From IMG/VR virus record IMGVR_UViG_3300017752_000120, positions 1-27,148 of that record: a stretch of 27,148 nucleotides of DNA. One strand, given 5' to 3'. The DNA comes from a virus. The translations under genes and the position numbers were made by a program. Positions 1 to 27,148 of the stretch are shown here, one piece after another. Within the stretch, counting starts at the first letter, position 1. Every line of letters starts with the position of its first letter. The notes under the pieces are model-generated. The model ran no database searches, was not told where the DNA came from, and worked only from the letters and a program-made list of their open reading frames with translations.

Positions 1-135
1 CATGTAAGGATCATGAAAGTAACCTACAAAACTGTAGACTGCAATAAGTCCAGTGGTAGCACCTGCTACTGGTATAAGTCCTACAAAGAATCCATAGAAG
101 ACTCCTAGCAGTAATACAATGATGTATGTTTCCAT
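1..135 (-). CDS. tctA: TctA-like permease, N-terminal fragment (runs off left edge)
   Basis: This is a 45-codon open frame that starts at an ATG at 133-135 and is still open at base 1. It encodes one hydrophobic helix containing GLIPVAGA, then YFHDPYM. TctA permeases of the tripartite tricarboxylate transporter family have a G-x-LPG-x-GG-type loop after the first helix and a DPY-like motif shortly after it, so the fragment matches a TctA N-terminus. No clear Shine-Dalgarno sequence is seen; a hairpin at 144-168 lies 8 bases upstream of the start. The C-terminal half of a TctA-like gene enters at the opposite edge of the window on the same strand (see 26450-27148). The assignment rests on a short stretch plus that context. 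Confidence 0.55.
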   Translation of the reverse strand, partial: METYIIVLLLGVFYGFFVGLIPVAGATTGLIAVYSFVGYFHDPYM

Positions 136-1578: not shown

Positions 1579-1625
1579 ATAACACCTTGTATGCTTCTCT
1601 ATGCAATCAGGAGAATGCATATATA

Positions 1626-2375
1626 ATGGCTAGAAAACAACGCAAAGCTAAACCTCAGCGTCAACACCTTACACATGCTGAGTATATGGAATCAAACGTA
1701 CACTACCTACCACAAGCAACCAAACAAAAAGAAGTTCATTTACATGGACGCAATCCTAACCAAAAATCTTACATTTTTAAACTACTAGATCCTACGCAAA
1801 CTATTGTTTTTGCAACAGGACCAGCAGGCACGGGAAAAACAATGTTGGCTGTACTAGCAGCTGTTAAAGCGTTAAAAGAAGGAGATGCAGAACGTATTAT
1901 CATTACACGACCGGCAGTAGGTGTAGATGATGAACAACACGGTTTCCTACCAGGCACTATAGAAGATAAGATGGCGCCTTGGACAAAGCCAATATTTGAT
2001 GTAATGAGAGATTACTACAATGCCAAGCAAATACAAACCATGATCCAGGAAGGTGTTATTGAGATTTCGCCACTGGCATTCATGCGGGGTCGAACTTTTA
2101 AAAACGCTTGGGTTATTGCAGATGAAATGCAGAACGCAACACCTAATCAAATGAAGATGTTACTTACACGCATTGGAGACAACAGTCGTATGGTAGTAAC
2201 CGGTGATATTGCACAAACAGATCGTAAAGAATATGAAAACGGATTGATTGATTTCAAACGACTATATGCGAGATTTAACGACAGTGAGTACATTAGCATT
2301 GCTGAGTTTGAACATCAAGACATTGAAAGACATCCAGCAGTCATCGAAGTCTTAGATATATATGGCGATAAATAA
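1626..2375 (+). CDS. phoH: PhoH-like ATPase
   Basis: This 249-residue PhoH-family P-loop ATPase has Walker A GPAGTGKT (residues 65-72), the family block ITRPAVGVDDEQHGFLPG (93-110), Walker B WVIADE (162-167) and a sensor-like VVTGDIAQTD (190-199). PhoH proteins are common in marine myophages and their role is debated (phosphate stress, RNA metabolism). The ATG at 1626 was chosen over an in-frame ATG at 1587. It is preceded by AGGAG and yields the basic N-terminus MARKQRK usual for phage PhoH. The gene is rightward, opposite to nearly all of the window. Its last codons include a GATAAATA box for the next gene. Confidence 0.92.
   Translation: MARKQRKAKPQRQHLTHAEYMESNVHYLPQATKQKEVHLHGRNPNQKSYIFKLLDPTQTIVFATGPAGTGKTMLAVLAAVKALKEGDAERIIITRPAVGVDDEQHGFLPGTIEDKMAPWTKPIFDVMRDYYNAKQIQTMIQEGVIEISPLAFMRGRTFKNAWVIADEMQNATPNQMKMLLTRIGDNSRMVVTGDIAQTDRKEYENGLIDFKRLYARFNDSEYISIAEFEHQDIERHPAVIEVLDIYGDK
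2367..2374 (+). promoter_or_regulatory. Late promoter box GATAAATA
   Basis: The plus strand reads GATAAATA across the last codons of phoH, 43 bases before the start of the structural gene at 2418. T4 late promoters have TATAAATA as their only element, and T4-like marine phages use NATAAATA. The same box recurs before three tail-fibre genes in this window. Confidence 0.55.
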
Positions 2376-2994: not shown

Positions 2995-3071
2995 TGGCGC
3001 GGCTGAAGAGATTCGAACTCCTAGCCTTCGGTTTCGTAGACCGATGCTCTATCCAGTTGAGCTACAGCCGC
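2995..3071 (-). tRNA. tRNA-Arg (anticodon ACG)
   Basis: The cloverleaf is complete on the minus strand. Acceptor GCGGCTG pairs with CAGCCGC, the anticodon loop is CTACGAA within a TCGGT/ACCGA stem, and the T-loop is TTCGAAT. The 3' CCA is encoded (TGG at 2995-2997). ACG would need inosine at position 34 to read all CGN codons except CGG, and this depends on host TadA. Confidence 0.93.
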
Positions 3072-3076
3072 TGATT

Positions 3077-3151
3077 TGGTATCCCTACCCGGATTCGAAC
3101 CGAGATTGCCGCCGTGAAAGGGCGGTGTCCTAACCATTAGACGATAGGGAC
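3077..3151 (-). tRNA. tRNA-Glu (anticodon TTC)
   Basis: The 75-base cloverleaf has acceptor GTCCCTA with TAGGGAT (first pair G-T) and anticodon loop CTTTCAC within CCGCC/GGCGG. CCA is encoded. It lies 5 bases from tRNA-Arg and 5 bases from tRNA-Trp, so the three are surely one transcript. Confidence 0.93.
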
Positions 3152-3156
3152 TTATT

Positions 3157-3242
3157 TGGCATAGGTGGAGGGATTCGAACCCCCTAGCATCTCTGCTCTA
3201 GTTTTGGAGACTAGTGTGACACTCCAACTTCACCGCACCTAC
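3157..3242 (-). tRNA. tRNA-Trp (anticodon CCA) with an extended variable arm
   Basis: Acceptor GTAGGTG pairs with CACCTAT, the D-stem is GTGA/TCAC, the anticodon stem is CTAGT/ACTAG around CTCCAAA, and the T-stem is GGGGG/CCCTC. CCA is encoded with G at position 73, the tryptophan discriminator base. Between the anticodon and T stems lie 13 bases, AGCAGAGATGCTA, able to form a 4-bp AGCA/TGCT arm. The total of 86 nt is class II size, whereas normal tRNA-Trp has a variable loop of about 5 nt. Anticodon and discriminator indicate Trp; the arm is odd. Confidence 0.85.
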
Positions 3243-3243
3243 A

Positions 3244-3378
3244 TTATTTGTTGCGTTTACGCCTAAACTTTCTAAGCCTTGCATACTTTCTCAGCATACA
3301 CTCAATAACAATATTTTTAAGTTTGCGACGTTTTGATCTTGCCGCTTGACTTCGATCTAGTCTAGTACCTCTGTCCAT
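3244..3378 (-). CDS. Very small basic protein (44 aa)
   Basis: The ATG at 3376-3378 is preceded by AAGAGG at good ribosome-site spacing. The frame runs to a TAA that ends one base from the tRNA-Trp gene. The 44 residues are extremely rich in Arg and Lys (about 20), for example RSKRRKLKN and ARLRKFRRKRNK, suggesting contact with nucleic acid or the ribosome. It follows the nucleotidase gene by 10 bases, so it is in the same unit. No family is recognised. Length and charge recall ribosomal proteins S21/L34, but the conserved residues of those are absent. Confidence 0.6.
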   Translation of the reverse strand: MDRGTRLDRSQAARSKRRKLKNIVIECMLRKYARLRKFRRKRNK

Positions 3379-3388
3379 ATCTGCCTCT

Positions 3389-3961
3389 TTATGCAGTTAC
3401 GATCTCGTAAACCTCTTTCCAACTCTTAGCAAGTGGAAAATCCTTGCAATCCATGTTAAAGCCATGCTCGATTACAATAGGCTTCAGACCGACTTTTTCA
3501 CCAGCGAGTGCGTTTTCTACTTTGTCCTCGACCCAGTAACAACCGCTGTCTTTGTATTTAAGTAAAGCCTCATCTTTGTCGGCGCCAGTAGCCAAGCAAA
3601 CAACACTTTCAAAAGTGCCTTTGCCAAACAGTTTTGCTAGGTTCCGTTCCCGCAACTTTTGTGCATACTTGTTAGTTGACAAACTAGTAACACAAATAAA
3701 TGTCCATCCTTCGTCAGCCATCTTAGTTATAACTTCGACTGCATCACGCAGTGGAGGAAGGTAACCAATAGCAGCACTTTCGTTGAAGATGCGTATCATC
3801 TTCTTGCCTTGTTCTTTGCTAATACCGTACTGTTCGCCTACGTTGTAGATCGTCTCAGCACCTTCTATCTTTTGGAATCCGTATTCTTCCATAAAAATAT
3901 GGAAGGCATACTCCCAATTACATAGGACGCCATCACAATCTACAATAATAGTCTTTTTCAT
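3389..3961 (-). CDS. HAD-superfamily 5'(3')-deoxyribonucleotidase-like phosphatase
   Basis: This 190-residue protein begins MKKTIIVDCDGVLCNW. The HAD nucleophile motif DxDG is at D8/D10, and motif III/IV-like segments include WVEDKVENAL near residues 143-152. Length and the CDGVLCNW start match small phage/bacterial 5' nucleotidases of the NT5C type, which dephosphorylate (deoxy)nucleoside monophosphates. A role in balancing nucleotide pools during phage replication is likely, alongside the MazG-like enzyme at 10401. A TTGACA/TATACT promoter lies 31 bases upstream. Confidence 0.75.
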   Translation of the reverse strand: MKKTIIVDCDGVLCNWEYAFHIFMEEYGFQKIEGAETIYNVGEQYGISKEQGKKMIRIFNESAAIGYLPPLRDAVEVITKMADEGWTFICVTSLSTNKYAQKLRERNLAKLFGKGTFESVVCLATGADKDEALLKYKDSGCYWVEDKVENALAGEKVGLKPIVIEHGFNMDCKDFPLAKSWKEVYEIVTA

Positions 3962-3991
3962 ATTTTCTCTTTCTCTTTAACTTACTTTACT

Positions 3992-4019
3992 AGTATAGCA
4001 AACTTTTAAGTTTTGTCAA
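3992..4019 (-). promoter_or_regulatory. Sigma70-type early promoter for the nucleotidase unit
   Basis: On the minus strand TTGACA (4019-4014), a 16-bp spacer and TATACT (3997-3992) precede the nucleotidase start by 31 bases. The -35 box sits inside the last codons of the upstream gene, whose protein ends VDKT. Confidence 0.75.
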
Positions 4020-4674
4020 CCACTTTTACATAGTTAAGCACAGTTTCTTTGCCACCGTGGAACTTACTGGTCTGGTGACGTTTGACTTTGCCTTCTACTG
4101 TACAAGCATCGCCCCAATGTTCTGCAGAATGTTTAGTAAAGAAGCAAACAATATCTGTGCCGATTTTAGCATTTACAATGTAGCAAGCCAGTCTCTGTAT
4201 AAAACTACAGTTAATGATTTCTACTTCGCCGCTGATCTTCTCGCCTAGATTGCCAATGTATTCACTAACAGTACTAAGTTTGCGCATTTCGATGTCTTTA
4301 GCATCACGTTTGACTGCACGGTTGTATGCTTTAGGCAAACTTGCTATTACGCCAATATCTCTGCGATCAACTACACCTGTTTGGATAAGGTTGAGAACTT
4401 TTTGCTCAAAATCATTGATCTTGGCACCCATGGCTTTAAATGTCAAGCCTCTGTAGTATTTGATGATATCTTCTGCAGTAGTTTCGCAGTCTTGCGTAAC
4501 TGTGTCTATAAACGCAGTTTGCTGTTCACTAAGAACACCTAAATGTGAAAGGATAAGTGTTTTGTTGGTCACGGTGTCTGGACCAGGATAGTTTATGTAT
4601 TCTTCTTGATTTTGGTTATATGCTGCAACAGCGTAGGTCATTACTAGTTTGAGGTCGAAAGTAGTATCTTTCAT
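4006..4674 (-). CDS. Conserved phage protein, possible OB-fold C-terminus, unknown function
   Basis: This 222-residue soluble protein has a mostly helical N-terminal 130 residues. The C-terminal part, from about residue 150, contains strands and the block CTVEGKVKRHQTS followed by KETVLNYVKV. Similar VEGKVK-RH and GGKET-x-LN-x-VK segments occur in phage proteins of unknown function with an OB-like, nucleic-acid-binding appearance. I do not recognise a specific family. The gene has its own TTGACA/TATTAT promoter upstream and hosts the next promoter in its final codons, placing it in the early region. Confidence 0.6.
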   Translation of the reverse strand: MKDTTFDLKLVMTYAVAAYNQNQEEYINYPGPDTVTNKTLILSHLGVLSEQQTAFIDTVTQDCETTAEDIIKYYRGLTFKAMGAKINDFEQKVLNLIQTGVVDRRDIGVIASLPKAYNRAVKRDAKDIEMRKLSTVSEYIGNLGEKISGEVEIINCSFIQRLACYIVNAKIGTDIVCFFTKHSAEHWGDACTVEGKVKRHQTSKFHGGKETVLNYVKVVDKT

Positions 4675-4737: not shown

Positions 4738-5695
4738 CCAGATCCTTGTAAATCATCCTCAAACTATTTTGTGCTTGTATATTTTTCGTTACACACGTTC
4801 TTTGCCAAAGATCTTCTTCCCACGCAACCTTTCCTGTGTAATGGCTGTAATGAAACTGCTCAGGATTAGTGCAGATATGTGTGTGCCAAACACTGATGTT
4901 CTGTTGGTCAATCCAAGTTGCAAGTTCTGGTATATTGTCTATGTTGTCATGTTGTACAACTGTGTTAACCATAAACTTGGGATCTAGTGCTTGTCTTAGT
5001 GCTTGTATATTTTTTTGTATTATATCCCAACTACACAGCGTCCTAATGCGTTCTATTGTTTCTCCTGTGCCATCTATACTCAGTACAAAACATAAGTTAG
5101 TAAAACGTTTAAGTGCAGACATCATATGGTCTGTCAAGATAGTTGCATTTGTATTGATTATTATTTCGCAGTCAACGTTTTCTAAACTATCGAGCACAGT
5201 GCTAAAACTCTTTATCATAAAAGGTTCACCGCCTGCAAGATAAATGCGTTTAGCATTAGGGTTGATATCAAGATCGGGCTCTACAGTTTTGTAAATATCT
5301 TCATGACCTAAGTATCTAGCCCATTCGCTGCTACTGCCTGCATTGCAAGTTTGACATCTTAGGTTACAAAGATTACTGTATCGCAAGTCATAACTTAGTT
5401 CTTCTGGATTATGGAAATCTAAATCTGGAAAGGATTTAAGCCATTCTTTGTTGTAAAGTTGCCGTTCACTAAAAGTCTTTATTTGTTCTTGCGCTACACA
5501 TTTTCTGCATTCACCAACAGATTTATTGTCTAGCATTGCTGTGCGCACTGCTTGTAGTCGATCATCGTCGATGATGTCGCTGCTATGACAACAAAGTTTT
5601 TGCTTATTGTTGAGGTCTATGTGCTTGTGTATGAAAGGAAGGACGCAGAAACTATGCCCATATGTTAGTACATCCTTTAGTTGGATATCTGACAT
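4727..5695 (-). CDS. Radical SAM protein with N-terminal twitch/SPASM-type cluster region
   Basis: The 322-residue protein has a radical SAM CxxxCxxC motif at C110-C114-C117 (LCNLRCQTC) and the SAM-binding GGEP at 155-158. Ahead of the barrel, C17, C35/C36, C63 and C66 form an auxiliary Fe-S cluster pattern of the kind usually found C-terminally as SPASM/twitch. This order matches the N-terminal twitch radical SAM family. Its substrate is unknown; relatives modify peptides or small molecules. The start overlaps the clamp loader gene end by 19 bases, an odd position because T4-like phages usually have gp62 and regA there. A second family member is at 18974. Confidence 0.85.
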   Translation of the reverse strand: MSDIQLKDVLTYGHSFCVLPFIHKHIDLNNKQKLCCHSSDIIDDDRLQAVRTAMLDNKSVGECRKCVAQEQIKTFSERQLYNKEWLKSFPDLDFHNPEELSYDLRYSNLCNLRCQTCNAGSSSEWARYLGHEDIYKTVEPDLDINPNAKRIYLAGGEPFMIKSFSTVLDSLENVDCEIIINTNATILTDHMMSALKRFTNLCFVLSIDGTGETIERIRTLCSWDIIQKNIQALRQALDPKFMVNTVVQHDNIDNIPELATWIDQQNISVWHTHICTNPEQFHYSHYTGKVAWEEDLWQRTCVTKNIQAQNSLRMIYKDLVDK

Positions 5696-6600
5696 AGTTC
5701 TACTAGTGTTGCCGCCAAGTTAATCTCTTGGTCTGCTACCATTGGAATGTTGCGCAGTCCTTTTGCAATGATGAGAATAGCTGCATCCTTTTGTTCCTGT
5801 GTTTCTCCCCACAGTTCCAAGTTGTCATACATCCAGCGGAACAGATCATCCATTTCCTCAGGACGCACTTGACTGCACAGCATCTTACGAGCCTCTAGTA
5901 TCTTACCTTGCTTGAACAAGTCTACCACTGCTAGTTTGTAGTCTGCTGTTGCACTATCACCTTCGTTTGGCTTTACTAGTGTGCCATCCACTGTGTTCAT
6001 CTGACACAAGTTCAAGCATTTACGCAAGTCAGGATATGTTGCTTTTACATAACTGTCCAGTGTATCAATATCAATCTCTACACCTTCTTCAACACACACT
6101 GTTGCAATACGAGCAGTAAACTCTGTGTGATCAATCTTTTCAATGTGAAAGCCTTGACAACGGCTGTGCAGTGCAGGGATAATCTTGTTTGGATAGTTAC
6201 AAGTGAGAATAAAGCGACTACTGCTTGCATATGTTTCCATTACACCACGCAGTGCCGCTTGACCATTTGGACTGATATAATCAGCCTCATCTAGCAGTAC
6301 AACTTTAAAATCACCAAAAGGCATAGTTTGTACAAAGTTAGTGATCTTATCACGCACGTTTTCAACACTGTTTTCACGACTAGCATTGATCTCTAGTACA
6401 TCATACTCATCAATATCAAGCATGTTAATAAGCACTTTTGCCAGTGTAGTTTTACCTGTGCCTGGAGCACCACTAAACAGCAAGTGTGGAATAGTTTTTG
6501 CATCTACCCAACCCTGCACTTGTTTACGTTGTGCATCATCTCTAAACACATAGTCTGAGATTGTGCTAGGTCTGTATTTTTCTGTCCAAAGTTCTTTCAT
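5677..6600 (-). CDS. 44: Sliding clamp loader large subunit, gp44-type AAA+ ATPase
   Basis: The 307-residue protein has Walker A GAPGTGKT (residues 44-51), Walker B VLLDEAD (101-107), sensor 1 ILTCN (131-135) and the clamp-loader SRC arginine-finger motif (146-148). The N-terminus LWTEKYRPSTISDYVF is typical of RFC/gp44 subunits. It loads the gp45-type clamp for phage DNA replication. The small subunit (gp62) is not next to it. The start codon overlaps the stop of the 45-aa gene upstream (ATGA). Confidence 0.95.
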   Translation of the reverse strand: MKELWTEKYRPSTISDYVFRDDAQRKQVQGWVDAKTIPHLLFSGAPGTGKTTLAKVLINMLDIDEYDVLEINASRENSVENVRDKITNFVQTMPFGDFKVVLLDEADYISPNGQAALRGVMETYASSSRFILTCNYPNKIIPALHSRCQGFHIEKIDHTEFTARIATVCVEEGVEIDIDTLDSYVKATYPDLRKCLNLCQMNTVDGTLVKPNEGDSATADYKLAVVDLFKQGKILEARKMLCSQVRPEEMDDLFRWMYDNLELWGETQEQKDAAILIIAKGLRNIPMVADQEINLAATLVELCQISN

Positions 6601-15457: not shown

Positions 15458-16528
15458 TTACAAAGTTAAGTTCTCTAGTGGTCTTGTTGGATTTACACCT
15501 AAGAAATCGCCCCATTTGCCATAGTAGTGTCGCATACCAACTTCATCATGTATAGTAGAGTTCTCATGTCTTCCGTGCAGAATGTTTCTTGATTCTGTAC
15601 CTTCACGCATTGTAGTGCCTTGCCCTGCAACGCCAATAAGGTCTTCGTGCAGATTGCGTCCAAATGGACCCCAGATACTGTTGTGGTGTTTAATGCGTGT
15701 GTGTCTCTCAGCAGGTGTGTCAATGCGCAGCCCATAACCTCTGAACTCGATTAAGACTCGATTAGGACCTAGTGGAGTTACTGTGTCACTACGATAGGCA
15801 CTGCCCCGTAAGTTGAAGTTATAGCCTGGGAAGAGGTCGACCATGTACCACTGGTTGGGCGGCAGATTGGGAAAAGATAACTCCCCTCTATCCTCAAAGC
15901 CGTCATACTCAGTATAGTTAACAGTAAAGCTACTGACGTTAACATGACCATTATCAAAAGGAACATTTTTTCTAGCGAAATATTCATCGTTAAAACCGCT
16001 CACTCTGTTAAAGTAGTGCATGAAATCGTGATAAAACTCGCTATTAGTATCATGCCACAACTTGTAGTTGGTGTCAATGATTGCTTTGTGATAGTGAAAC
16101 ACTTCTAGTTCTTCAGTATCAATAGCATCTGCTATGCAATCAAATGCACCTGCTGTCCACTGTTCTACATCCTGAGTAGGATTTGGATCCAGTGTTACCC
16201 AAACCATTTGTCCGTGCTTTACTTCGCAATGCAGTTGTGTTCCATCTATAGGCCCACTTAGTGTACCTGCTGGCTGTGTAATGCCTGTGTCTCGAAGAGC
16301 ACGAACACCGTCCGTTGTATTTACTGCTATTACAGGAACGCCTGCTATTGTAGTTGTGCGGAAATCGCCTAGTTCATACATTTCGCTCAAGTGGCATATA
16401 GGCACCCAAACTTTACCGAAGATCAACTCTTGTTCTGCTAGGTAAACTTCGTGATTATTGTAGCATTCACTGCTGATGTATTCTATGTTTGGTTGCTTTA
16501 ACCAGTTGGTATGATTGCGTGGTGGCAT
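15458..16528 (-). CDS. Rieske-type ring-hydroxylating oxygenase alpha subunit lacking the Rieske ligands
   Basis: The 356-residue protein has the alpha-subunit layout. The N-terminal FGKVWVPICHLSEMYELGDF and TTTIAGVPVIAVNTTDG (residues 38-74) match the start of the Rieske domain. The CxH and CxxH cluster ligands and about 40 residues between them are absent; the text goes from VRALRDTGI straight to HCEVKHGQMVWVTLDP (100-115). The catalytic-domain block NYKLWHDTNSEFYHDFMHYF (154-173) is kept, with H167 and H171 as likely iron ligands, and so is the C-terminal HYYGKWGDFLG. Start ATG 16526-16528 has AAGGAG. Substrate and activity are unknown. Confidence 0.75.
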   Translation of the reverse strand: MPPRNHTNWLKQPNIEYISSECYNNHEVYLAEQELIFGKVWVPICHLSEMYELGDFRTTTIAGVPVIAVNTTDGVRALRDTGITQPAGTLSGPIDGTQLHCEVKHGQMVWVTLDPNPTQDVEQWTAGAFDCIADAIDTEELEVFHYHKAIIDTNYKLWHDTNSEFYHDFMHYFNRVSGFNDEYFARKNVPFDNGHVNVSSFTVNYTEYDGFEDRGELSFPNLPPNQWYMVDLFPGYNFNLRGSAYRSDTVTPLGPNRVLIEFRGYGLRIDTPAERHTRIKHHNSIWGPFGRNLHEDLIGVAGQGTTMREGTESRNILHGRHENSTIHDEVGMRHYYGKWGDFLGVNPTRPLENLTL

Positions 16529-16613
16529 AGTAAACTCCTTACTATACAATATTTACATATAGCATGGAGTAATGTCAAAGATTATCTGTCTATTAGGGAA
16601 TAGGTATAAACTA

Positions 16614-16895
16614 TTATACAGCAAAACTTTCGCCGCAGCCGCAACTTGCTACAGCATTGGGATTGACGACTTGTAGATAACTGCCGCCTAGTTCTGTAAT
16701 ATAATCAACGGTACAGCCCATTACAAACATTTCTGCAATAGGGTCTACATGTAGATTGCCTACGGTAGGTTCTTTGTCTGTAACATCCCAAATATAAGTA
16801 AAACCGCTGCATCCTCCGCCTTTTACACTTAGGTAAACATTGGGATCTCCAACGGTTTTAAGATATTGTTCTGCTTTTTCAGTTAGTGTGATCAT
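16614..16895 (-). CDS. A-type iron-sulfur cluster carrier (IscA/ErpA/HesB family)
   Basis: The 93-residue protein has the three conserved cysteines of the family, C29 in KGGGCSGF and C85/C87 in SCGCGESFAV at the C-terminus. A-type carriers pass Fe-S clusters to apo-enzymes. Phage copies are known in marine myophages. Here it stands between an SGNH hydrolase and the Rieske-type gene, and the window encodes two radical SAM enzymes that need Fe-S clusters, so these are its most plausible clients. Confidence 0.93.
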   Translation of the reverse strand: MITLTEKAEQYLKTVGDPNVYLSVKGGGCSGFTYIWDVTDKEPTVGNLHVDPIAEMFVMGCTVDYITELGGSYLQVVNPNAVASCGCGESFAV

Positions 16896-18672: not shown

Positions 18673-18762
18673 TGGCAGAGAGGGAGGGATTCGAACCCCC
18701 GGAGCCCGCAAAGGCTCAATGGATTAGTAATCCACCGCTTTAAGCCACTCAGCCACCTCTCC
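18673..18762 (-). tRNA. tRNA-Ser (anticodon ACT)
   Basis: The 90-base class II cloverleaf has acceptor GGAGAGG/CCTCTCT, D-arm with GTGG, anticodon loop TTACTAA within GTGGA/TCCAT, a long variable arm GAGCC-TTTGCG-GGCTC, T-loop TTCGAAT, and encoded CCA with G73 (a serine discriminator). The anticodon ACT is unusual. AGY-reading serine tRNAs normally have GCT, and A34 could become inosine and misread AGA. Confidence 0.88.
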
Positions 18763-20719: not shown

Positions 20720-20796
20720 TGGCGTTCCCGGCAGGATTCGAACCTGCGACCCACAGCTTAGAAGGCTGTTGCTCTATCCAGCTGAGCTACGGAAAC
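20720..20796 (-). tRNA. tRNA-Arg (anticodon TCT)
   Basis: The 77-base cloverleaf has acceptor GTTTCCG/CGGGAAC, anticodon loop CTTCTAA within ACAGC/GCTGT, T-loop TTCGAAT and encoded CCA. It reads AGA/AGG, frequent in AT-rich phages. Confidence 0.94.
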
Positions 20797-20803
20797 ATAA
20801 AGT

Positions 20804-20888
20804 TGGTGCGCCTAGAGGGAGTCGAACCCCCACGCCTTGCGGCACAGGTACCTAAAACCTGCGTGTCTACCAGTTCCACCATAGGCGC
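20804..20888 (-). tRNA. tRNA-Leu (anticodon TAG)
   Basis: The 85-base class II cloverleaf has acceptor GCGCCTA/TAGGCGC, anticodon loop TTTAGGT within CAGGT/ACCTG, a long variable arm TGCCGCAAGGCG, T-loop TTCGACT and encoded CCA. It reads CUA/CUG and related CUN codons. It is directly behind a strong promoter. Confidence 0.94.
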
Positions 20889-20900
20889 TTTATGTTTATT

Positions 20901-20929
20901 ACTATACTAGAATCCTATGCTTGTGTCAA
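20901..20929 (-). promoter_or_regulatory. Sigma70-type promoter for the tRNA-Leu/tRNA-Arg/SDR/radical SAM unit
   Basis: Minus-strand TTGACA (20929-20924), 17-bp spacer and TATAGT (20906-20901), 12 bases before the mature tRNA-Leu 5' end. The -35 box is made of codons near the end of the PP-loop gene. A T4-consensus TATAAATA also occurs at 20932-20939 on the same strand. Confidence 0.78.
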
Positions 20930-22018
20930 CCTATTTATATCAGTGTGCGGTAGCATTTCTAAGTTTGTGGGTGTTATCTTAAAAATAGCAGTTATGCGAG
21001 CTACTGTTGTTGTACTCTTTACACCGTCTAATATTGTTCTTGTTTCCAATCCATAAGGAGCAGGACTTAGTTGCTCTACTAGATGCGCACTTGTCTCACG
21101 CCAAGCATCAACTATATCCTGCCTGCCCATGCCTAATACCTGTTGCATGCTGCGATAATGCTTGTTGTTAAAGTATCCAGTTGCATGGAAATCTTTGCGT
21201 GTTTTTTCTTCATTGTATTTTACATCTATACCGTCGTGCAATCCTAAATGTCTGCAAAAATGTTTTTGAGGAAGGTCTTTATAAACAACAAAGCCTTGTT
21301 TGTCTCGTTGTTTTATAAACTCATATCCTTGATAAACTTGCTTTACAGTTAGCTCTGGGTGAACGCTGCCTAGAAAAAAGTCTTCGTGTGTACGTCCAAT
21401 ACAATAATCTGTCGCATCATTGAGTATCCAATAGTAGTCATCGCCATTGACATAGTACCATGGTTTGTCTACACCTAACAGTTCAAGATCATAGTCGTCA
21501 TATTTGTCTAACATCAAATCGCTATATACCGGAGCAAATCCATGATAGAAGTCATGGTATTTTGTAAAGCACCATGGATCAGTCCAAACACGTTCAAAAT
21601 CCTCTATGCCGAGCCTGTGTACAACATTAGGCATATGAACGCTATTGGCAAACTCAATACCAGGTGTAAACTCTTGCTCTGTATATAGATCTTCAACTAT
21701 GCTGTTTGTATGAGTAAAAACACAATCAAAGTCAATACCCATGTCTAATGCCGCAAGCAATATAGTATGACTATCTCTACCGCCGGTGTAATGCAATCTT
21801 ATTTTGTTGTGTGACTGTCTTAGTACACTGAGTTTTTGTCTAATAAGATCCGCAGTGGTATACTGTTGCAATCTTGCAACATCCACTGCACTGTATGCAT
21901 CTAGATGATATTGTGGTGCAATGCCTTGGCTAAACTGTTCAGTTTGCGCACTTTCATACAGTGCAGCATATGCATTGACGAATGTCTTTTCGCCTACTCG
22001 ATAATGTTGTTGATTCAT
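20915..22018 (-). CDS. PP-loop (asparagine-synthase/N-type ATP pyrophosphatase-like) protein
   Basis: The 367-residue protein contains IRLHYTGGRDSHTILLAALD (73-92), the SGGxDS pyrophosphate-binding loop of ATP pyrophosphatases with Thr for the first Ser. A second strand, FDCVFTHTN, follows as in asparagine synthase C-terminal and related ligase domains. An N-terminal glutaminase Cys is absent. It would adenylate a carbonyl or carboxylate and exchange it for an amine or similar group. It lies after the terminator at 22030-22062, so it is expressed separately from the oxygenase cassette. A role in modifying a small molecule or peptide is inferred. Confidence 0.6.
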   Translation of the reverse strand: MNQQHYRVGEKTFVNAYAALYESAQTEQFSQGIAPQYHLDAYSAVDVARLQQYTTADLIRQKLSVLRQSHNKIRLHYTGGRDSHTILLAALDMGIDFDCVFTHTNSIVEDLYTEQEFTPGIEFANSVHMPNVVHRLGIEDFERVWTDPWCFTKYHDFYHGFAPVYSDLMLDKYDDYDLELLGVDKPWYYVNGDDYYWILNDATDYCIGRTHEDFFLGSVHPELTVKQVYQGYEFIKQRDKQGFVVYKDLPQKHFCRHLGLHDGIDVKYNEEKTRKDFHATGYFNNKHYRSMQQVLGMGRQDIVDAWRETSAHLVEQLSPAPYGLETRTILDGVKSTTTVARITAIFKITPTNLEMLPHTDINRLTQA

Positions 22019-22070: not shown

Positions 22071-22784
22071 TTAAGCTGCAGCTTTTGCTGCTACTAGCTC
22101 GTCTACGTTGATGAGCTGCATGTTGCTTTCACCAACTAAGTTGTCTAACCATTCGTTACGCTTCACAACCATCATGAATGTGTTGCGTGGGATGTCTGTT
22201 ACGTTCTCTGTACCATGACCTGTGTGATCTGGATTAAAGATTAGGAACTGACCTTTTTGTAGGTTGATTGACATTTCACTGTCTTCGGTCTTAAAGCGGA
22301 ACCAAGCACCGCCTGGCATGTCGTTAAGTTGTACGAAAATGCGCAGTGTTTCGCCGTGCTCTTGACCACGCTGATTATCAAAGTCAGTGTGGATAGCCAT
22401 TGTATGACCTGGCTTCTGCTGGAAGATACGGATGCGTGTCTTCTCACACTTAAACCAATCAATCATAGCTCTTAGTTTTGGACTGTTGTAGTAACTGTCT
22501 GTGTATGAGAAGTTTTCTGGTGCTTCTTCTGCCCAAAAGTCTTGGATTTCTGTTGTTGTGCTTTTACCATCTTCACTACGGAAAGCATTGTAAAGATAGT
22601 TGCTAACAATACCTTTATCTTCGTCGAATGCAACGATATTGTTATCACTCACTGCACGTTCGCGAGCAGTGTAATCGAGTGCTGCTAGTTCATTGTCCCA
22701 GTCGCCCTGGAAAATCTGTGAACTGCAATAGATGCCTGTATTAGGGTTGTAACCTTTTGCATCATACTGTTTAAGTTCTGACAT
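22071..22784 (-). CDS. 2-oxoglutarate/Fe(II)-dependent oxygenase (237 aa)
   Basis: The double-stranded beta-helix signature is visible: H132-x-D134 in GHTMAIHTDFDN, a distal His at H187 or H190 in FNPDHTGHGTEN, and R200 as candidate 2OG ligand. The GGAWFRFKTEDSEMSINLQK and GQFLIFNPDH strands fit this family, which hydroxylates proteins or small molecules using 2OG and O2. TAGGAG precedes the ATG. It is the last gene of the cassette and sits before a strong terminator. Sequence and Ala-rich tail (AAKAAA) differ from the other two oxygenases here, so it is a separate lineage. Confidence 0.75.
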   Translation of the reverse strand: MSELKQYDAKGYNPNTGIYCSSQIFQGDWDNELAALDYTARERAVSDNNIVAFDEDKGIVSNYLYNAFRSEDGKSTTTEIQDFWAEEAPENFSYTDSYYNSPKLRAMIDWFKCEKTRIRIFQQKPGHTMAIHTDFDNQRGQEHGETLRIFVQLNDMPGGAWFRFKTEDSEMSINLQKGQFLIFNPDHTGHGTENVTDIPRNTFMMVVKRNEWLDNLVGESNMQLINVDELVAAKAAA

Positions 22785-22846: not shown

Positions 22847-23731
22847 TCATAGGCGCTGTTCTAACACTGTATTTATACTCTGTTTAAGTTGATCACTTAA
22901 ACAAAGTCTATTGAAAGGACCTCCTCTGTTAAGGTAGTCCCAATGTTCACCAACACCTGTAGCAAGATTTACCACAGGGCTAGCACTTACACCAAGTTCA
23001 TCGCACAGTGCAAGTTGTGTAGTTCTATACTTTTCAAACAAATAGTCTGAACTAAAGTTTTCCATTAAGCCCATTGCTATTTGCATGTTAAAAAAGTTTA
23101 GATAACTATCACGTTGGTATGCGCCCAGTCCATCTTTATTTGACCCAGATCTCTGTAGACGCATACCTATACGCAATCTTCCAACAGGAAATGCTTTGCT
23201 CATGCTAAACACAACCTGTTCAATGCACGGATAAGTTAGGTCGAAGTCCATTTCACCTACCGTGCCAAACCAACAACAATCCACAAGTACAGGTACTTTT
23301 AATAGTGTACATTGTTCCATTAGTTCTTTGTAGTTATAGTTTGTACCACTGTCAGCGAAAGGTATGCTAATGATCAAAGTGTCATTTGGCCCAATATCAT
23401 TTTTATCTTTTAGTACATTAATATCAGTAGCATACCCATGATAACTGTATTCACCTGCTAGTACACGCAGATTTCTATGACGATGTTTTAAGTAAAACTT
23501 GTCAAATGCTTCTGTTGTACCATGACTGTATACACTATCGCTGAACTCGTTCAAACCTTGTATGGTGTTGTTGCTTGTACTGAGAATCCAATCTCGATAC
23601 ATATCGCAGTATTCCTCACTGCAATCCGTGTCCTGTGTGCCTACTTTAGCATGCATTAACATGCCTAGTGTTGTAGTTGTTTCACTATCAGGAATACATT
23701 TACCTTGACTATAAGGCTTTCTAGTCCTCAT
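22847..23731 (-). CDS. PLP-dependent aminotransferase-like enzyme
   Basis: The 294-residue protein has the fold-type I core: VPVLVDCCWFG with D151 placed to pair with the PLP pyridine nitrogen, and VVFSMSKAFPVGRLRIGMRL with K179 as the Schiff-base lysine and a following Arg. It is about 100 residues shorter than typical class I/II aminotransferases, lacking most of the N-terminal arm and C-terminal domain. ATG at 23729-23731 overlaps the preceding stop by 11 bases. It probably aminates a keto group made by the neighbouring oxygenase or dehydrogenase; the substrate is unknown. Confidence 0.7.
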   Translation of the reverse strand: MRTRKPYSQGKCIPDSETTTTLGMLMHAKVGTQDTDCSEEYCDMYRDWILSTSNNTIQGLNEFSDSVYSHGTTEAFDKFYLKHRHRNLRVLAGEYSYHGYATDINVLKDKNDIGPNDTLIISIPFADSGTNYNYKELMEQCTLLKVPVLVDCCWFGTVGEMDFDLTYPCIEQVVFSMSKAFPVGRLRIGMRLQRSGSNKDGLGAYQRDSYLNFFNMQIAMGLMENFSSDYLFEKYRTTQLALCDELGVSASPVVNLATGVGEHWDYLNRGGPFNRLCLSDQLKQSINTVLEQRL

Positions 23732-24362
23732 TCACAAATCCGGTTACCGTTAATGTATACTTTGGATTGATGCCAAAGTTTGCACTTAGATGAAATACAT
23801 CATTTGGAATCTCCACAGTGTATCCAGGTTTCCAATGATGTAACATATTATCATGCACTTGCAAAAAATGTCCCCAATCCCATGGGCTAATAGCAACAAA
23901 ATATCTTTTTACATTGCCTTCGCCGAAACGTGTTTTAAAACCGTTGTAACTATCAGTGTGAATAGGAATGCCTGTGCCTGGATCATATCTTAACAATCTA
24001 ACCAAACAGGTTTCTTTTTTGAGATTAACAGCATCAAAGAAATCATCACCGCACATGTCTTTCAGTGCCTGATCATCTTCTGGTTCGATTCCCCAGTTGA
24101 TTTCTAAAGTGTTATGTTCGTTGTATCCTAGATACTGTGTCATTACGCTTTGTCGCAAACTGTCTGCAGGTACAAACGGTCTAGGTTTGTAATCTTTAAT
24201 CGTAGCTCGGGAAATATTATCTTGTGCCCACGATATAATCTGTTGATGATCAATATCAACATGCATTTCTAAATCACTAATGTCTAGATGATCATCTAAA
24301 CTTACTTGTTTGTCGTCCAAGTATTCTTGGAACCAATCATTTTTTTCGTAAAGATTTGGCAT
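23721..24362 (-). CDS. 2-oxoglutarate/Fe(II)-dependent oxygenase (213 aa)
   Basis: H135-x-D137 (GIPIHTDSYNG) and H191 (NDVFHLSANFGINPKYTLTV) form the iron triad. The block WDWGHFLQVHDNMLHHWKPG (161-180) is shared with the 24870 product (RDWDWGHFFHWGN and INQWRAGD), so the two are paralogues. The pattern is closest to aspartyl/asparaginyl hydroxylase-like members. ATG 24360-24362 overlaps the upstream TAA (TAATG); an ATG five codons earlier is the alternative start. Substrate unknown. Confidence 0.8.
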   Translation of the reverse strand: MPNLYEKNDWFQEYLDDKQVSLDDHLDISDLEMHVDIDHQQIISWAQDNISRATIKDYKPRPFVPADSLRQSVMTQYLGYNEHNTLEINWGIEPEDDQALKDMCGDDFFDAVNLKKETCLVRLLRYDPGTGIPIHTDSYNGFKTRFGEGNVKRYFVAISPWDWGHFLQVHDNMLHHWKPGYTVEIPNDVFHLSANFGINPKYTLTVTGFVNED

Positions 24363-24877
24363 TACTTTATATCCCATATTCTATAAATCGAATGACTACG
24401 CACTGTGCGTCTTACAATATCTTCCCCTGCAAGTTTAGTTTCAGCATATATACGATGCTCTTCTCCCAAAGGTGATAGGTCTATTGTGTGTTTTTGATTG
24501 TTAATATCAGGTAAATTTCTAGTACCAAGAAATCCACTGCAAAATACACGACCAACATGCTCTCTATGAGTATGCCTTATGTCATTGTCTGTAAGTCCAT
24601 ACACACATTTTGTACTTGTATACACAACGTGGCAATCACTAAAAACATCACATATACGTTGTATGCCTTCTAGTTCAATGCGTCTTGTTTCTGCATCTCG
24701 TCTTGGACTTGTTTTGCGACACGCTCTCGCAACAAGCCAAACTGTGTCTATGTTTTCATATTGTTGCCACTCATCAATAGGATCTTCGAATCGTGTAGTG
24801 GCAATGGTTGGCTTATAGGAGTCAGCAAGATACTGTCCTAAATGTCCTGTAGCACCTATAAGCAACACATTATTCAA
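24362..24877 (-). CDS. NAD-dependent epimerase/dehydratase-like protein
   Basis: This 171-residue extended SDR has the Rossmann turn LIGATGHLGQY (GxxGxxG, residues 8-14), VVYTSTKCVYG with the catalytic-strand Ser/Thr (84-94) and Y144-x-x-x-K148. Such enzymes act on nucleotide sugars, but at about half normal length the substrate domain is largely missing. TTG at 24875-24877 is chosen as start because GGAG lies 8 bases upstream and an ATG in frame would be 53 codons earlier, deep in the previous gene. It overlaps the stop of the 24870 gene by 8 bases. Confidence 0.65.
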   Translation of the reverse strand: MNNVLLIGATGHLGQYLADSYKPTIATTRFEDPIDEWQQYENIDTVWLVARACRKTSPRRDAETRRIELEGIQRICDVFSDCHVVYTSTKCVYGLTDNDIRHTHREHVGRVFCSGFLGTRNLPDINNQKHTIDLSPLGEEHRIYAETKLAGEDIVRRTVRSHSIYRIWDIK

Positions 24878-25592
24878 GTTCACCACTCCAATGAATAGTG
24901 ATCTTAGGATTGATGCCTGCGTTTGCACTTCCGTGATACACGCCAGGCTGAAGATCCCAAAAGTCTCCTGCTCGCCATTGGTTAATACAAGTGTTGCCCC
25001 AATGAAAGAAGTGACCCCAATCCCAGTCACGCACAAAAATCATATACCTGCGCAGTTTAGTATAGTCAGGCTTTTCGTCACCTGTGCGTCTAATAAAACT
25101 ACTATAGGTATCCACATGACTCCAAATATTATGCCCTGGAGGCTGAATAAACAGACTAATGCCCATTTTATCTTTGCCAAATCCTGGGAATAAGTTTGCT
25201 AGTGGTTCAAACCAATGTTCAAACTCCTCGTTAGCAATCTTGAAGTACTGTGTGTTGTACGCAGTATGGGTATTATTTTTTAGTGCAAGCAATGCTTGTT
25301 CCCTAATAGGAGCATCGCTTACATCATCATTGGCATGCATGATACGTTCATTCTCGTAGTCATACCACCAAAACTTTTCTGGTGTCATATGCTGGTTTGC
25401 TTTATTGATTGCAAACTCTGCTAGACCTTCCCAATCAAACTCGACGTTGCCCTCATAGTTGAGAGCATCGCCGTGATCCTGTTTCATAGGATCCCAATGC
25501 CAAGGATACTGTTCTCGGATTACCGGAAGAACACTTTCCTCAGGACTGATAGGTTTCAGTGGGATCTTAAAATCATATGGATCTAGTTTCAT
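24870..25592 (-). CDS. 2-oxoglutarate/Fe(II)-dependent oxygenase (240 aa)
   Basis: H159-x-D161 (NIWSHVDTYSSF) and H220 (PGVYHGSANAGINPKITIHW) give the metal triad, and DWDWGHF (189-195) and GSANAGINPK are shared with the 23721 product. The two oxygenases look like ancient duplicates separated by the epimerase gene. ATG 25590-25592 overlaps the TGA of the tctC-like gene (ATGA), so its translation is coupled to the transporter's binding protein; a longer frame would overlap that gene by about 60 bases. It may be a hydroxylase of the imported compound or of a biosynthetic intermediate. Confidence 0.8.
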   Translation of the reverse strand: MKLDPYDFKIPLKPISPEESVLPVIREQYPWHWDPMKQDHGDALNYEGNVEFDWEGLAEFAINKANQHMTPEKFWWYDYENERIMHANDDVSDAPIREQALLALKNNTHTAYNTQYFKIANEEFEHWFEPLANLFPGFGKDKMGISLFIQPPGHNIWSHVDTYSSFIRRTGDEKPDYTKLRRYMIFVRDWDWGHFFHWGNTCINQWRAGDFWDLQPGVYHGSANAGINPKITIHWSGELE

Positions 25593-26440
25593 CGCTGGCT
25601 TTCTACCATTGGTTCCCAACGACTGTTGATTTCGTCTTCGGTGAGATCCCAACGAGTTGTGTATACGCTGTTACACTTTGTCCATGTACCAATAGCACTG
25701 TCACAGTTCAAATGGTTTTCCATCATACGCAACTTCAACCCATCTGCTTGTTCCTGTGTCATATTAAGTGCCATCCAAGTCATATCCCAACCAAATGCTA
25801 GTTTAGGATTACCTGTCATTTGTGGCAAACTGTTTTCGCCAACACTAGCAAGGCTTTGCTCGCAAGTAATAGCAGGATCAGTTTCAGTAACAACCAATAC
25901 ATGCTTTTTACTAAGCAGTGCATAGTCTACTTCGCCGTTGATAAGAGCAAGACGTGCATCGCCTGATCCATCATAGACAACAGGCTTGTGTGTAGTTCCC
26001 CATTGGTTGTTGAACTCTTGTACAATACGAGCCAATGGACCGTCTGCAGGTACTGTGTGTGCTACACGACCTGAGTCTTTGCTAATAAAGCCACCCCTGG
26101 TACACACAAACAAAGGTGCTGAATCATAGCGCAGTGTGATTGCATCGTTGATGTCAAACTTAACACAGCCGCCGTCACGCCCTACTGCTTCATAATCACT
26201 AGCCCATGGCATAAGCACAGGACCATCAATCTTTGGAAGCAAACTTCCTAGTGCAACACAACGGTCACCTGGGTTTACCAAGTTTACGTCATAACTGCTG
26301 GCTAGGTCAGTACTGTATGCTTGGCTTTGCATGCTAAAGCCGCCTGTTTTACTACCACTGTTAAGGATAGTTAGTTTTTCTGCCGCAAAAGCAGTAGTCG
26401 TAAATAGTGCAATCGAAAATGCAACTAGTAGGTTCTTCAT
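25589..26440 (-). CDS. tctC: TctC-like periplasmic substrate-binding protein
   Basis: The 283-residue protein has a classical signal peptide (MKNLLVAFSIALFTTTAFA, cleavage near residue 19/20), followed by a beta-strand start (EKLTILNSGSKTGGFSMQSQ) as in type 2 periplasmic binding proteins. VVYDGSGDARLALINGEVDY (about 154-173) corresponds to the second ligand-loop region of TctC/BUG proteins (G-x-x-x-A-L-x-G-x-V-D). Several cysteines suggest disulfides. The gene follows the TctA-like permease by 9 bases, the strongest evidence for its role as the extracytoplasmic partner. Substrate (tri- or dicarboxylate) not defined. Confidence 0.72.
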   Translation of the reverse strand: MKNLLVAFSIALFTTTAFAAEKLTILNSGSKTGGFSMQSQAYSTDLASSYDVNLVNPGDRCVALGSLLPKIDGPVLMPWASDYEAVGRDGGCVKFDINDAITLRYDSAPLFVCTRGGFISKDSGRVAHTVPADGPLARIVQEFNNQWGTTHKPVVYDGSGDARLALINGEVDYALLSKKHVLVVTETDPAITCEQSLASVGENSLPQMTGNPKLAFGWDMTWMALNMTQEQADGLKLRMMENHLNCDSAIGTWTKCNSVYTTRWDLTEDEINSRWEPMVESQR

Positions 26441-26449
26441 CTATATCTC

Positions 26450-27148
26450 CTAGAATAAAAGTTGATTGAGTCTAAATACTCCATCTATTAGTTTGTTATG
26501 AATGATAAATGCAAACACTAAAGGAAGTGTGTCTGTGTTTCTCAATAGCATTCCTATGGGTGCTAGTACAGCGAAACATATTAAATAATATAGCATGCTG
26601 TAGTTCATTAAACCTGTATACAGTGTAACACCAAACAATGCAATAATCAATAAACTTATTAAGATTTTTAAGTTGAAGTTATAAAAAACTGGCACCATTT
26701 TGCTCAAGGGCCAAGCAATCATAAATCCAATAAAGTTTACTAACACAAGTCCAAGGGCAAGTTCAGGAAGAAAATCGCTGAACTCAAACTGTACAAGGTT
26801 AAAACCTTTTTGTTCCATGAGGAACAACAGTATTGCTTCACTGCCAATAAGTGGTACTCCAAATATAAGCAGTGGCAACAACATACTGAAAGCACCTGCA
26901 TTGTTTGCAGTTTCACTAACCACAATACGTTTTACAGGATCTTTGGTCACCAACATACTAGCATTGTATGCGGCTGTACTACTAAACACTGTAGTAAGTC
27001 CAGGAATAAGCCCTCCGAAGAAACCTATCGCTGTGCTTGCTAATAGTGCCAAAGGATTGAGAATGTACACACGACCTAGTTCATAAGCCTTTGCTTTTGT
27101 CTTGGCTATGTCAGCATCCCAATGATGCAACATCTGCGGAATAGCAAA
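26450..27148 (-). CDS. tctA: TctA-like permease, C-terminal half (runs off right edge)
   Basis: The frame is open from the right edge to a TAA at 26450-26452 (232 residues visible). It has the second TctA half-repeat motif FFGGLIPGLTTVFSSTAAYN, then ETANNAGAFSMLLPLLIFGV with the ESANNA-like signature of TctA. Five or six hydrophobic helices follow. TctA is the large permease of the tripartite tricarboxylate transporter, driven by an ion gradient. The ATG at 27131-27133 is internal, as five upstream codons are open. No TctB-like gene is seen in the window. Phage origin is inferred from neighbours. Confidence 0.8.
   Translation of the reverse strand, partial: FAIPQMLHHWDADIAKTKAKAYELGRVYILNPLALLASTAIGFFGGLIPGLTTVFSSTAAYNASMLVTKDPVKRIVVSETANNAGAFSMLLPLLIFGVPLIGSEAILLFLMEQKGFNLVQFEFSDFLPELALGLVLVNFIGFMIAWPLSKMVPVFYNFNLKILISLLIIALFGVTLYTGLMNYSMLYYLICFAVLAPIGMLLRNTDTLPLVFAFIIHNKLIDGVFRLNQLLF

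Follow-up and report, generated by a model that had tools for sequence, protein, structure and literature searches.

TctA permease genes paired with TctC-like binding-protein genes in an IMG/VR phage genome and its relatives

The IMG/VR virus record IMGVR_UViG_3300017752_000120 was analysed over positions 1 to 27,148, and this whole stretch of 27,148 nucleotides (nt) is referred to here as the window. At one edge, on the minus strand, lie a permease gene of the TctA family (TctA1), broken off by the contig end, and a gene for what is probably a very divergent TctC-type solute-binding protein (TctC1). At the other edge, the window begins inside a second TctA gene (TctA2). An initial annotation, made from the sequence alone, had placed a phage-borne tripartite tricarboxylate transporter (TTT) module at the first of these edges. 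Its claim of a TctA-like permease is confirmed by the match of the partial protein, 232 amino acids (aa) long, to Pfam family PF01970 (1.2e-16, 60.8 bits, profile positions 195-415 of 423; Pfam cut-off 28.9 bits) and by a second IMG/VR contig (3300017786_000107, here G001; 26.8 kb), which reads on past the window break into a complete TctA1 (Table 1). A glycine/proline motif occurs twice in the complete protein, as GLISGLIPG at aa 16 and GFFGGLIPG at aa 241, when a simplified pattern is applied; the available text of one source describes such a duplicated motif in TctA, one copy in each half (PMC5812351). Of 98 cellular TctAs, 48 contained this simplified pattern at least once, and TctA2 contained a single copy. 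A crude hydropathy scan gave 10 segments in TctA1 and eight in TctA2, compared with the approximately 9-12 transmembrane helices of TctA. Sequence searches of the PDB with the partial TctA1 and with TctC1 returned nothing useful. A gene for a UV-damage endonuclease, UvdE, lies upstream of TctA1 (locus L001 of G001, 501-1559; PF03851, 7.2e-37).

G001 and a longer contig, G002 (43.2 kb), represent the same locus as the window, with 99.8-99.9% identity; the entire window corresponds to G002 16056-43203 at 99.9%. Both window ends (1 and 27148) lie inside TctA genes, and G002 stops (position 43203) at the exact base where the window ends within TctA1, which marks an assembly branch point, perhaps reflecting strain variation upstream. 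Searches against PHROGs matched 7 of 10 window proteins, with clamp loader, PhoH, DNA polymerase, head-morphogenesis/GroES and tail/baseplate families represented, and G002 further encodes an endolysin, a spanin and virion proteins. The phage-type neighbourhood and the linkage to clamp loader and tail genes described in the initial annotation were thus found in the window and in two more IMG/VR contigs bearing two other metagenome numbers. The TctA-TctC pairs belong to a phage.

Combining the window with G001 and G002 revealed two TctA-TctC pairs in this phage, located at opposite edges of the window. TctA1 and TctA2 share 21% identity over 353 aligned positions and are therefore not the product of a recent duplication. 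The second binding protein, TctC2, was compared by profile with 56 bacterial TctCs gathered by clustering, giving a probability of 99.9 and an E-value of 1.9e-34, and the hidden Markov model (HMM) of those 56 proteins matched it at 4e-32. A structure model of TctC2 of moderate quality (pLDDT 72.9) retrieved TctC/Bug-type structures at ranks 1-11 of a fold search (Z 13.4-15.7, root-mean-square deviation 3.9-4.5), the next row having Z 10.4; rank 2, titled 'periplasmic transporter', is taken here as a TctC type. By its profile and its predicted two-domain fold, TctC2 is a TctC. A profile of TctC2 searched against the PDB had BugD (0.027) and then a TctC subunit (0.049) as its best matches, with unrelated proteins directly behind at 0.051, and a TctA2 profile had no match there. 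The Pfam family PF03401 (TctC) matched none of 14 TctC2-type members, including TctC2 of G002, at E-values up to 1. The Pfam comparison proposed in the initial annotation for both proteins of the first pair therefore succeeded for the permease with PF01970 and gave nothing for PF03401; the profile searches suggest that this failure on phage TctCs is a limit of sensitivity.

Judged by eye, the TctC1 N-terminus MKNLLVAFSIALFTTTAFA-AEK resembles a Sec signal peptide; in a simple 19-residue hydropathy scan, this start went unflagged. The gene begins 9 nt after the TctA1 stop, with a Shine-Dalgarno-like GGAGA. When the bacterial TctC HMM was searched against 518 phage open reading frames (ORFs) of at least 150 aa, TctC1 (2.9e-4) ranked directly after 29 clear TctC2 proteins. 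With a combined bacterial and TctC2 HMM, it scored 6.9e-5 and its relatives of the type found in another phage genome, G034, scored 0.015-0.016, the best other ORF being at 0.11. PHROG and NCBIfam searches gave no meaningful match for TctC1. The secreted TctC-like protein claimed beside the permease is thus supported in its signal-peptide-like start and its HMM match; it has no Pfam match, and its assignment to TctC is only probable, with support that is fair but short of final.

Related genes recur in other viral records. A scan of IMG/VR yielded 26 loci with TctA2 and 24 with TctC2 at 61-100% identity, G002 itself being counted. PF01970 was present on 36 of 39 viral records, in two copies in G002 and G034; these records had been picked via TctA or TctC. 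The T4-type major capsid protein gp23 was found on 4 of the 39 records and the portal protein gp20 on 4 of the 17 searched for it, both on the same four contigs: G005 (300 kb), G034 (328 kb), G015 (151 kb) and G020 (192 kb). The last 105 bases of G034 are identical to its start, which fits a circular assembly. G034 carries both types of pair. One is TctA2-TctC2 (locus L067); in the other, a gene whose product has 33% identity to TctA1 stands before one with 27% identity to TctC1. A scan with a two-sequence TctA1 alignment found six loci, including those of G001 and G034. The order TctA1-TctC1 is repeated in L125 and L127, while L124 and L128 break off before TctC; L127 and L128 resemble near-copies of G034. 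The TctC1-like proteins of G034, L125 and L127 are 320-321 aa long, exported-looking and 26-27% identical to TctC1. Synteny was compared across 35 loci, with L125 as the expected negative for the second pair and with further loci of the same contigs, G002 itself, L036, L048, L054, L057 and L062 left out. TctA2 was found in 33 of the 34 loci with TctC2, and TctC2 was the next gene in all 33 (in L033, an antisense ORF was called between them); some of these loci are near-copies, and the counts are not independent. A methyltransferase-like gene often lies upstream of TctA2 in the 34 TctC2 loci.

Table 1. Positions of the transporter genes and of other features in the window and in overlapping or related contigs
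Feature	Record	Position	Strand	Remarks
TctA1 permease, C-terminal 232 aa	Window	26450..27148	-	PF01970; gene broken off by contig end
Complete TctA1	G001/L001	5230-6525		431 aa, TTG start; PF01970 1.9e-44, 152.4 bits, profile 5-415 of 423
TctC1, probable divergent TctC-like solute-binding protein	Window	25589..26440	-	283 aa; TctC HMMs, next to TctA1
TctA2 start, first 45 codons	Window	1..135	-	From overlap with G002; absent from the initial annotation
Complete TctA2	G002/L011	14667-16190		507 aa; PF01970 4.4e-80
TctC2	G002/L011	13587-14654		355 aa; comes after TctA2
DUF6552 protein	L011	12010-12228		Near TctA2-TctC2
HxD...H...K protein, 2-oxoglutarate-oxygenase-like	Window	24870..25592	-	Homology to the gene after TctC2, alignment A6
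NAD-dependent epimerase/dehydratase family protein	Window	24362..24889	-	PF01370 4.4e-8; start uncertain
Second HxD...H...K protein	Window	23721..24377	-	33.7% over 98 aa to the first HxD...H...K protein, 5e-15; A6
2-oxoglutarate-Fe(II) oxygenase-like protein	Window	22071..22784	-	PF13640 5.5e-4, below cut-off
Phage clamp loader	Window	5677..6600	-	phrog_168 1.4e-79
PhoH-like protein	Window	1587..2375	+	phrog_170 6.4e-78

Selection on the viral TctA and TctC looks purifying. Ratios of dN/dS were 0.03-0.10 in 15 of 16 pairs (TctA2, TctC2 and G034-type TctA1/TctC1), one pair not being computable; these ratios are rough, dS exceeding 1 in 11 of the 15. The window's own pair differs from G001/G002 by three single-nucleotide polymorphisms, two of them amino-acid changing, too few for an estimate of selection.

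Two contigs binned into bacterial genomes carry similar genes. One, L068 (CAJQJC010000036.1), binned into a species-representative Pelagibacter metagenome-assembled genome (MAG), has a viral-type TctA, a TctC and the same phage neighbour families, and was treated as phage DNA, apparently misbinned or from an infecting phage. The other, L069, is a contig of an Omnitrophota MAG without phage genes by eye; its pair, at 3168-4604 and in the frame that follows, consists of a TctA with 42% identity and a TctC relative (2.9e-64). In each of three phylogenetic trees, a single branch separated the viral TctAs, L068 and L069 from the other rows, with support of 99, 98 and 100. The tree with support 98 had four rows from the order of the Pelagibacter MAG added and used a mixture model, and that with support 100 left out the TctA1 rows; in both, the label 'cell' needs two changes, presumably since the added rows sit among cellular ones. 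Sampling began from 98 different cellular rows; without the L068 copy, these were thinned to 29, mostly Alphaproteobacteria. Thus, the viral TctAs branch apart from the sampled bacterial ones. The TctA1 of the window forms a long branch whose deep placement is unsafe. The L069 TctA nests among viral TctA2 with a support of 86, which may mean either that a cellular carrier of a viral-type pair exists or that this contig was misassigned.

The initial annotation pointed to SAR11-type hosts, described as rich in TTT systems. The sole hint of such a host is the single phage-like contig, L068, and the description proved too strong: of 147 genomes sampled from that MAG's order, for which no completeness is given, 56 had a TctA and the other 91 had no match. 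Within the MAG's class, 99 of 289 genomes have a TctA relative. The best match there for TctA2 was L068 (2.4e-151), the next being at 4.0e-74; for TctA1, the L068 contig (5.8e-35) was followed closely by a cellular gene (2.2e-34). Four TctAs from the order were about 23-34% identical to four phage TctAs. Among the phages in INPHARED, the partial TctA1, TctC1 and TctC2 had no match; the complete TctA1 matched five records and TctA2 seven, at approximately 26-33% identity, these being faecal 'Bacteriophage sp.' and enterobacterial records.

The stop codon of TctC1 overlaps the start of the next gene as ATGA, read directly from the sequence as the initial annotation had stated. This next gene encodes an HxD...H...K protein that is 26% identical over 217 aa (3.5e-12) to the product of the gene after TctC2 in G002. 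In the alignment of this family (A6), H, D and the second H are invariant, and an R or K stands about 10 residues further on in all 11 rows, as read from the alignment. 2-Oxoglutarate/Fe(II) oxygenases carry an HxD...H metal triad and a downstream R or K. The protein behind TctC1 therefore resembles such oxygenases, its chemistry being putative. The best Pfam matches of the family were Cupin_2 (0.0023) and Asp_Arg_Hydrox (0.052), one member each of 11; the protein behind TctC1 matched only Phage_TAC_6, at 0.19, and no meaningful PHROG or PDB match was found for the family. This one family supplies the protein directly after TctC2 in 19 of the 34 loci. Four of six members in G034, in two neighbourhoods, and one of two in G005 lie near the transporters, a count for which no significance is claimed, as it is biased by a model built from transporter-adjacent genes, with G034 and one G005 locus among their sources. 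The 'biosynthetic cassette' seen in the initial annotation is not supported: its first gene encodes the HxD...H protein of putative chemistry, and among six downstream proteins scanned, the epimerase/dehydratase protein gave the sole above-cut-off Pfam match. A single transcript for the uptake and modification genes and an altered host uptake, both proposed there, are inferences.

Several other genes lie further along. The 2-oxoglutarate-Fe(II) oxygenase-like protein of the window matched phrog_61 (2OG-Fe(II) oxygenase) at 0.0029, yet two 'DNA endonuclease' PHROGs scored better, at 0.0017. ATP-pyrophosphatase-like proteins (SGGYDS/TGGRDS, by eye) occur near both TctA1-type pairs, at window 20915-22018 and L065 5749-7092, with weak mutual similarity (E 0.003). 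A Rieske-type oxygenase-like protein (15458-16549) stands beside a small IscA-like iron-sulphur protein (16614-16895), both recognized by eye, and six tRNA genes (Arg, Glu, Trp, Ser, Arg, Leu) are found at window 2995-3242, 18673-18762 and 20720-20888. Of 31 viral records, 14 encode a small membrane protein with the DUF6552 domain (PF20189; 72-79 aa in G002 and G034), and in 10 of the 14 its gene is 1.9-2.6 kb away from TctA2. This protein was considered as a stand-in for TctB, the third TTT subunit; bacterial matches occurred in 3 of 11 genomes, with flanks (about 1.5 kb or less) lacking TctA and TctC by eye, and it is regarded as a weak lead.

We consider it fairly likely that these genes come from a large T4-like marine phage with two separate TctA-TctC pairs, and that the acid imported feeds both host metabolism and phage enzymes. 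TctC would capture an organic acid in the periplasm, TctA would import it during infection with or without a host TctB, and the acid would then supply the host's metabolism and the phage's own enzymes. Several results weigh against this proposal. TctB (PF07331) was detected in none of 31 viral records (control genomes were positive in 3 of 14), and therefore a 'tripartite' system, as named in the initial annotation, cannot be claimed. Further, a crude hydropathy scan found no TctB-sized protein with four hydrophobic segments in G034, G005 or G002; ORFs with three segments were found in G034 (155 aa) and G005 (142 aa), and since the scan undercounts helices, a divergent TctB could be missed. 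According to the accessible part of one source, both membrane subunits are essential in one tested TTT system, conservation of TctB is poor, and no TctB was seen among archaeal sequences (PMC5812351). For TctC1, no Pfam family was matched at E-values up to 10, comparison with the bacterial TctC profile gave a probability of 52% over 215 columns (46% over 14 columns for an unrelated control), comparison with the TctC2 profile gave no significant alignment (probability 3.3), and the structure model, built from four aligned sequences, reached a pLDDT of 33. Its G034-type relatives scored 0.061 and 0.075 with the bacterial TctC HMM and were inseparable from unrelated ORFs (0.091). The results bear directly on the presence, pairing and recurrence of the genes, on their linkage to phage genes, on selection and on the fold of TctC2; expression, export, TctB-free membrane assembly, transport, substrate and benefit are suppositions of the proposal.

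The same weaknesses of TctC1 would suit an unrelated secreted protein, which would leave a lone TctA in this part of the genome. This appears very unlikely, as TctC1 is the best match after the TctC2 proteins for two TctC HMMs among the 518 ORFs, and a TctA1 followed by an exported-looking protein recurs in G034, L125 and L127, the last a near-copy of G034. The missing TctB is relevant to two further explanations. The phage TctA and TctC might borrow a host TctB and thereby change which substrates the host's own TTT system accepts, with no free-standing transporter being built; this reading, which we regard as rather unlikely though worth serious attention, draws on the absence of TctB from the viral records and on the TctA relatives in 99 of the 289 genomes, which imply partners in some possible hosts. 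However, the low identity of the phage TctAs to those of the order makes a fit with host TctB uncertain, and most sampled genomes of that order have no TctA match. Alternatively, the pair may not serve mainly in nutrient import, TctC being a sensor or decoy or TctA altering the envelope, for example against superinfection. Homologues of TctC act in signalling and chemotaxis, according to the available text of PMC5812351, and a missing TctB is compatible with a non-transport role; nevertheless, the constant company of TctA2 and TctC2 (33 of 33 loci) and the low dN/dS of both fit a working transporter better, and a non-transport role seems quite unlikely.

It is barely credible that the assembly is chimeric or that a piece of bacterial DNA was wrongly joined to the phage sequence. 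The common end base of the window and G002 inside TctA1 does indicate an assembly branch point, but G001 reads through the break without loss of frame, its TctA1 matches the family along almost all of its length, and gp23 and gp20 share contigs with homologous pairs, one of these contigs having identical ends. In the other direction, the proposal of acid import by a two-pair phage can be extended. The repeated presence of an HxD...H gene beside the transporters would, on a bold reading, mean that phage enzymes need 2-oxoglutarate or a similar acid. In this bolder and doubtful form, a two-component transporter line without TctB would have evolved within large T4-like marine phages, with duplicates for different substrates, importing a 2-oxoglutarate-like co-substrate for the adjoining HxD...H oxygenase-like enzymes; the uptake-plus-enzyme unit would have been kept through phage evolution instead of being a recent capture from a host.

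Among known systems, the bacterial TctABC transporters (citrate TctC, malate MatC, adipate AdpC and terephthalate TphC) share the TctA family, adjoining permease and binding-protein genes and, for the second phage pair, the TctC fold. In contrast to these, the phage genes have no recognized TctB, follow the order TctA-TctC, often with an HxD protein next, and encode TctAs on a branch of their own in the sample; two of the phage records hold two pairs apiece. The cyanophage PstS may be regarded as the closest studied analogue that we found, being a phage-encoded periplasmic binding protein thought to aid uptake during infection in the available account (PMC10976474). The same account takes the host's PstABC to be the partner of phage PstS and traces PstS to known host genera (PMC10976474), whereas the phage TctA and TctC genes are carried side by side and the genomes searched contained no close donor. 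A TctA domain on viral contigs has been noted previously, as tctA domain matches on SUP05 viral contigs in the accessible portions of the original report and of a review that repeats it (PMC4164917; PMC6359870). Similarly, a norB/nirK scaffold from an oxygen-minimum zone, judged to be of a myovirus, has neighbouring tricarboxylate transport genes, mentioned in one sentence of the available text (PMC8115048). Our literature search, mostly of open-access articles and mostly of titles and abstracts, found no study of phage TctA-TctC pairs.

Known phages carry single uptake parts such as PstS; here, a permease and a receptor occur together, in two versions within the same genome. Whether TTT transport needs TctB could be examined on this gene pair as a small test case, the function of TctB being described as unknown in the available part of PMC5812351. 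Should the pairs work, uptake by infected marine bacteria would extend to organic acids that an uninfected cell may not import. Very large related phages keep the pair intact, and such viruses may therefore change uptake by the bacteria they infect.

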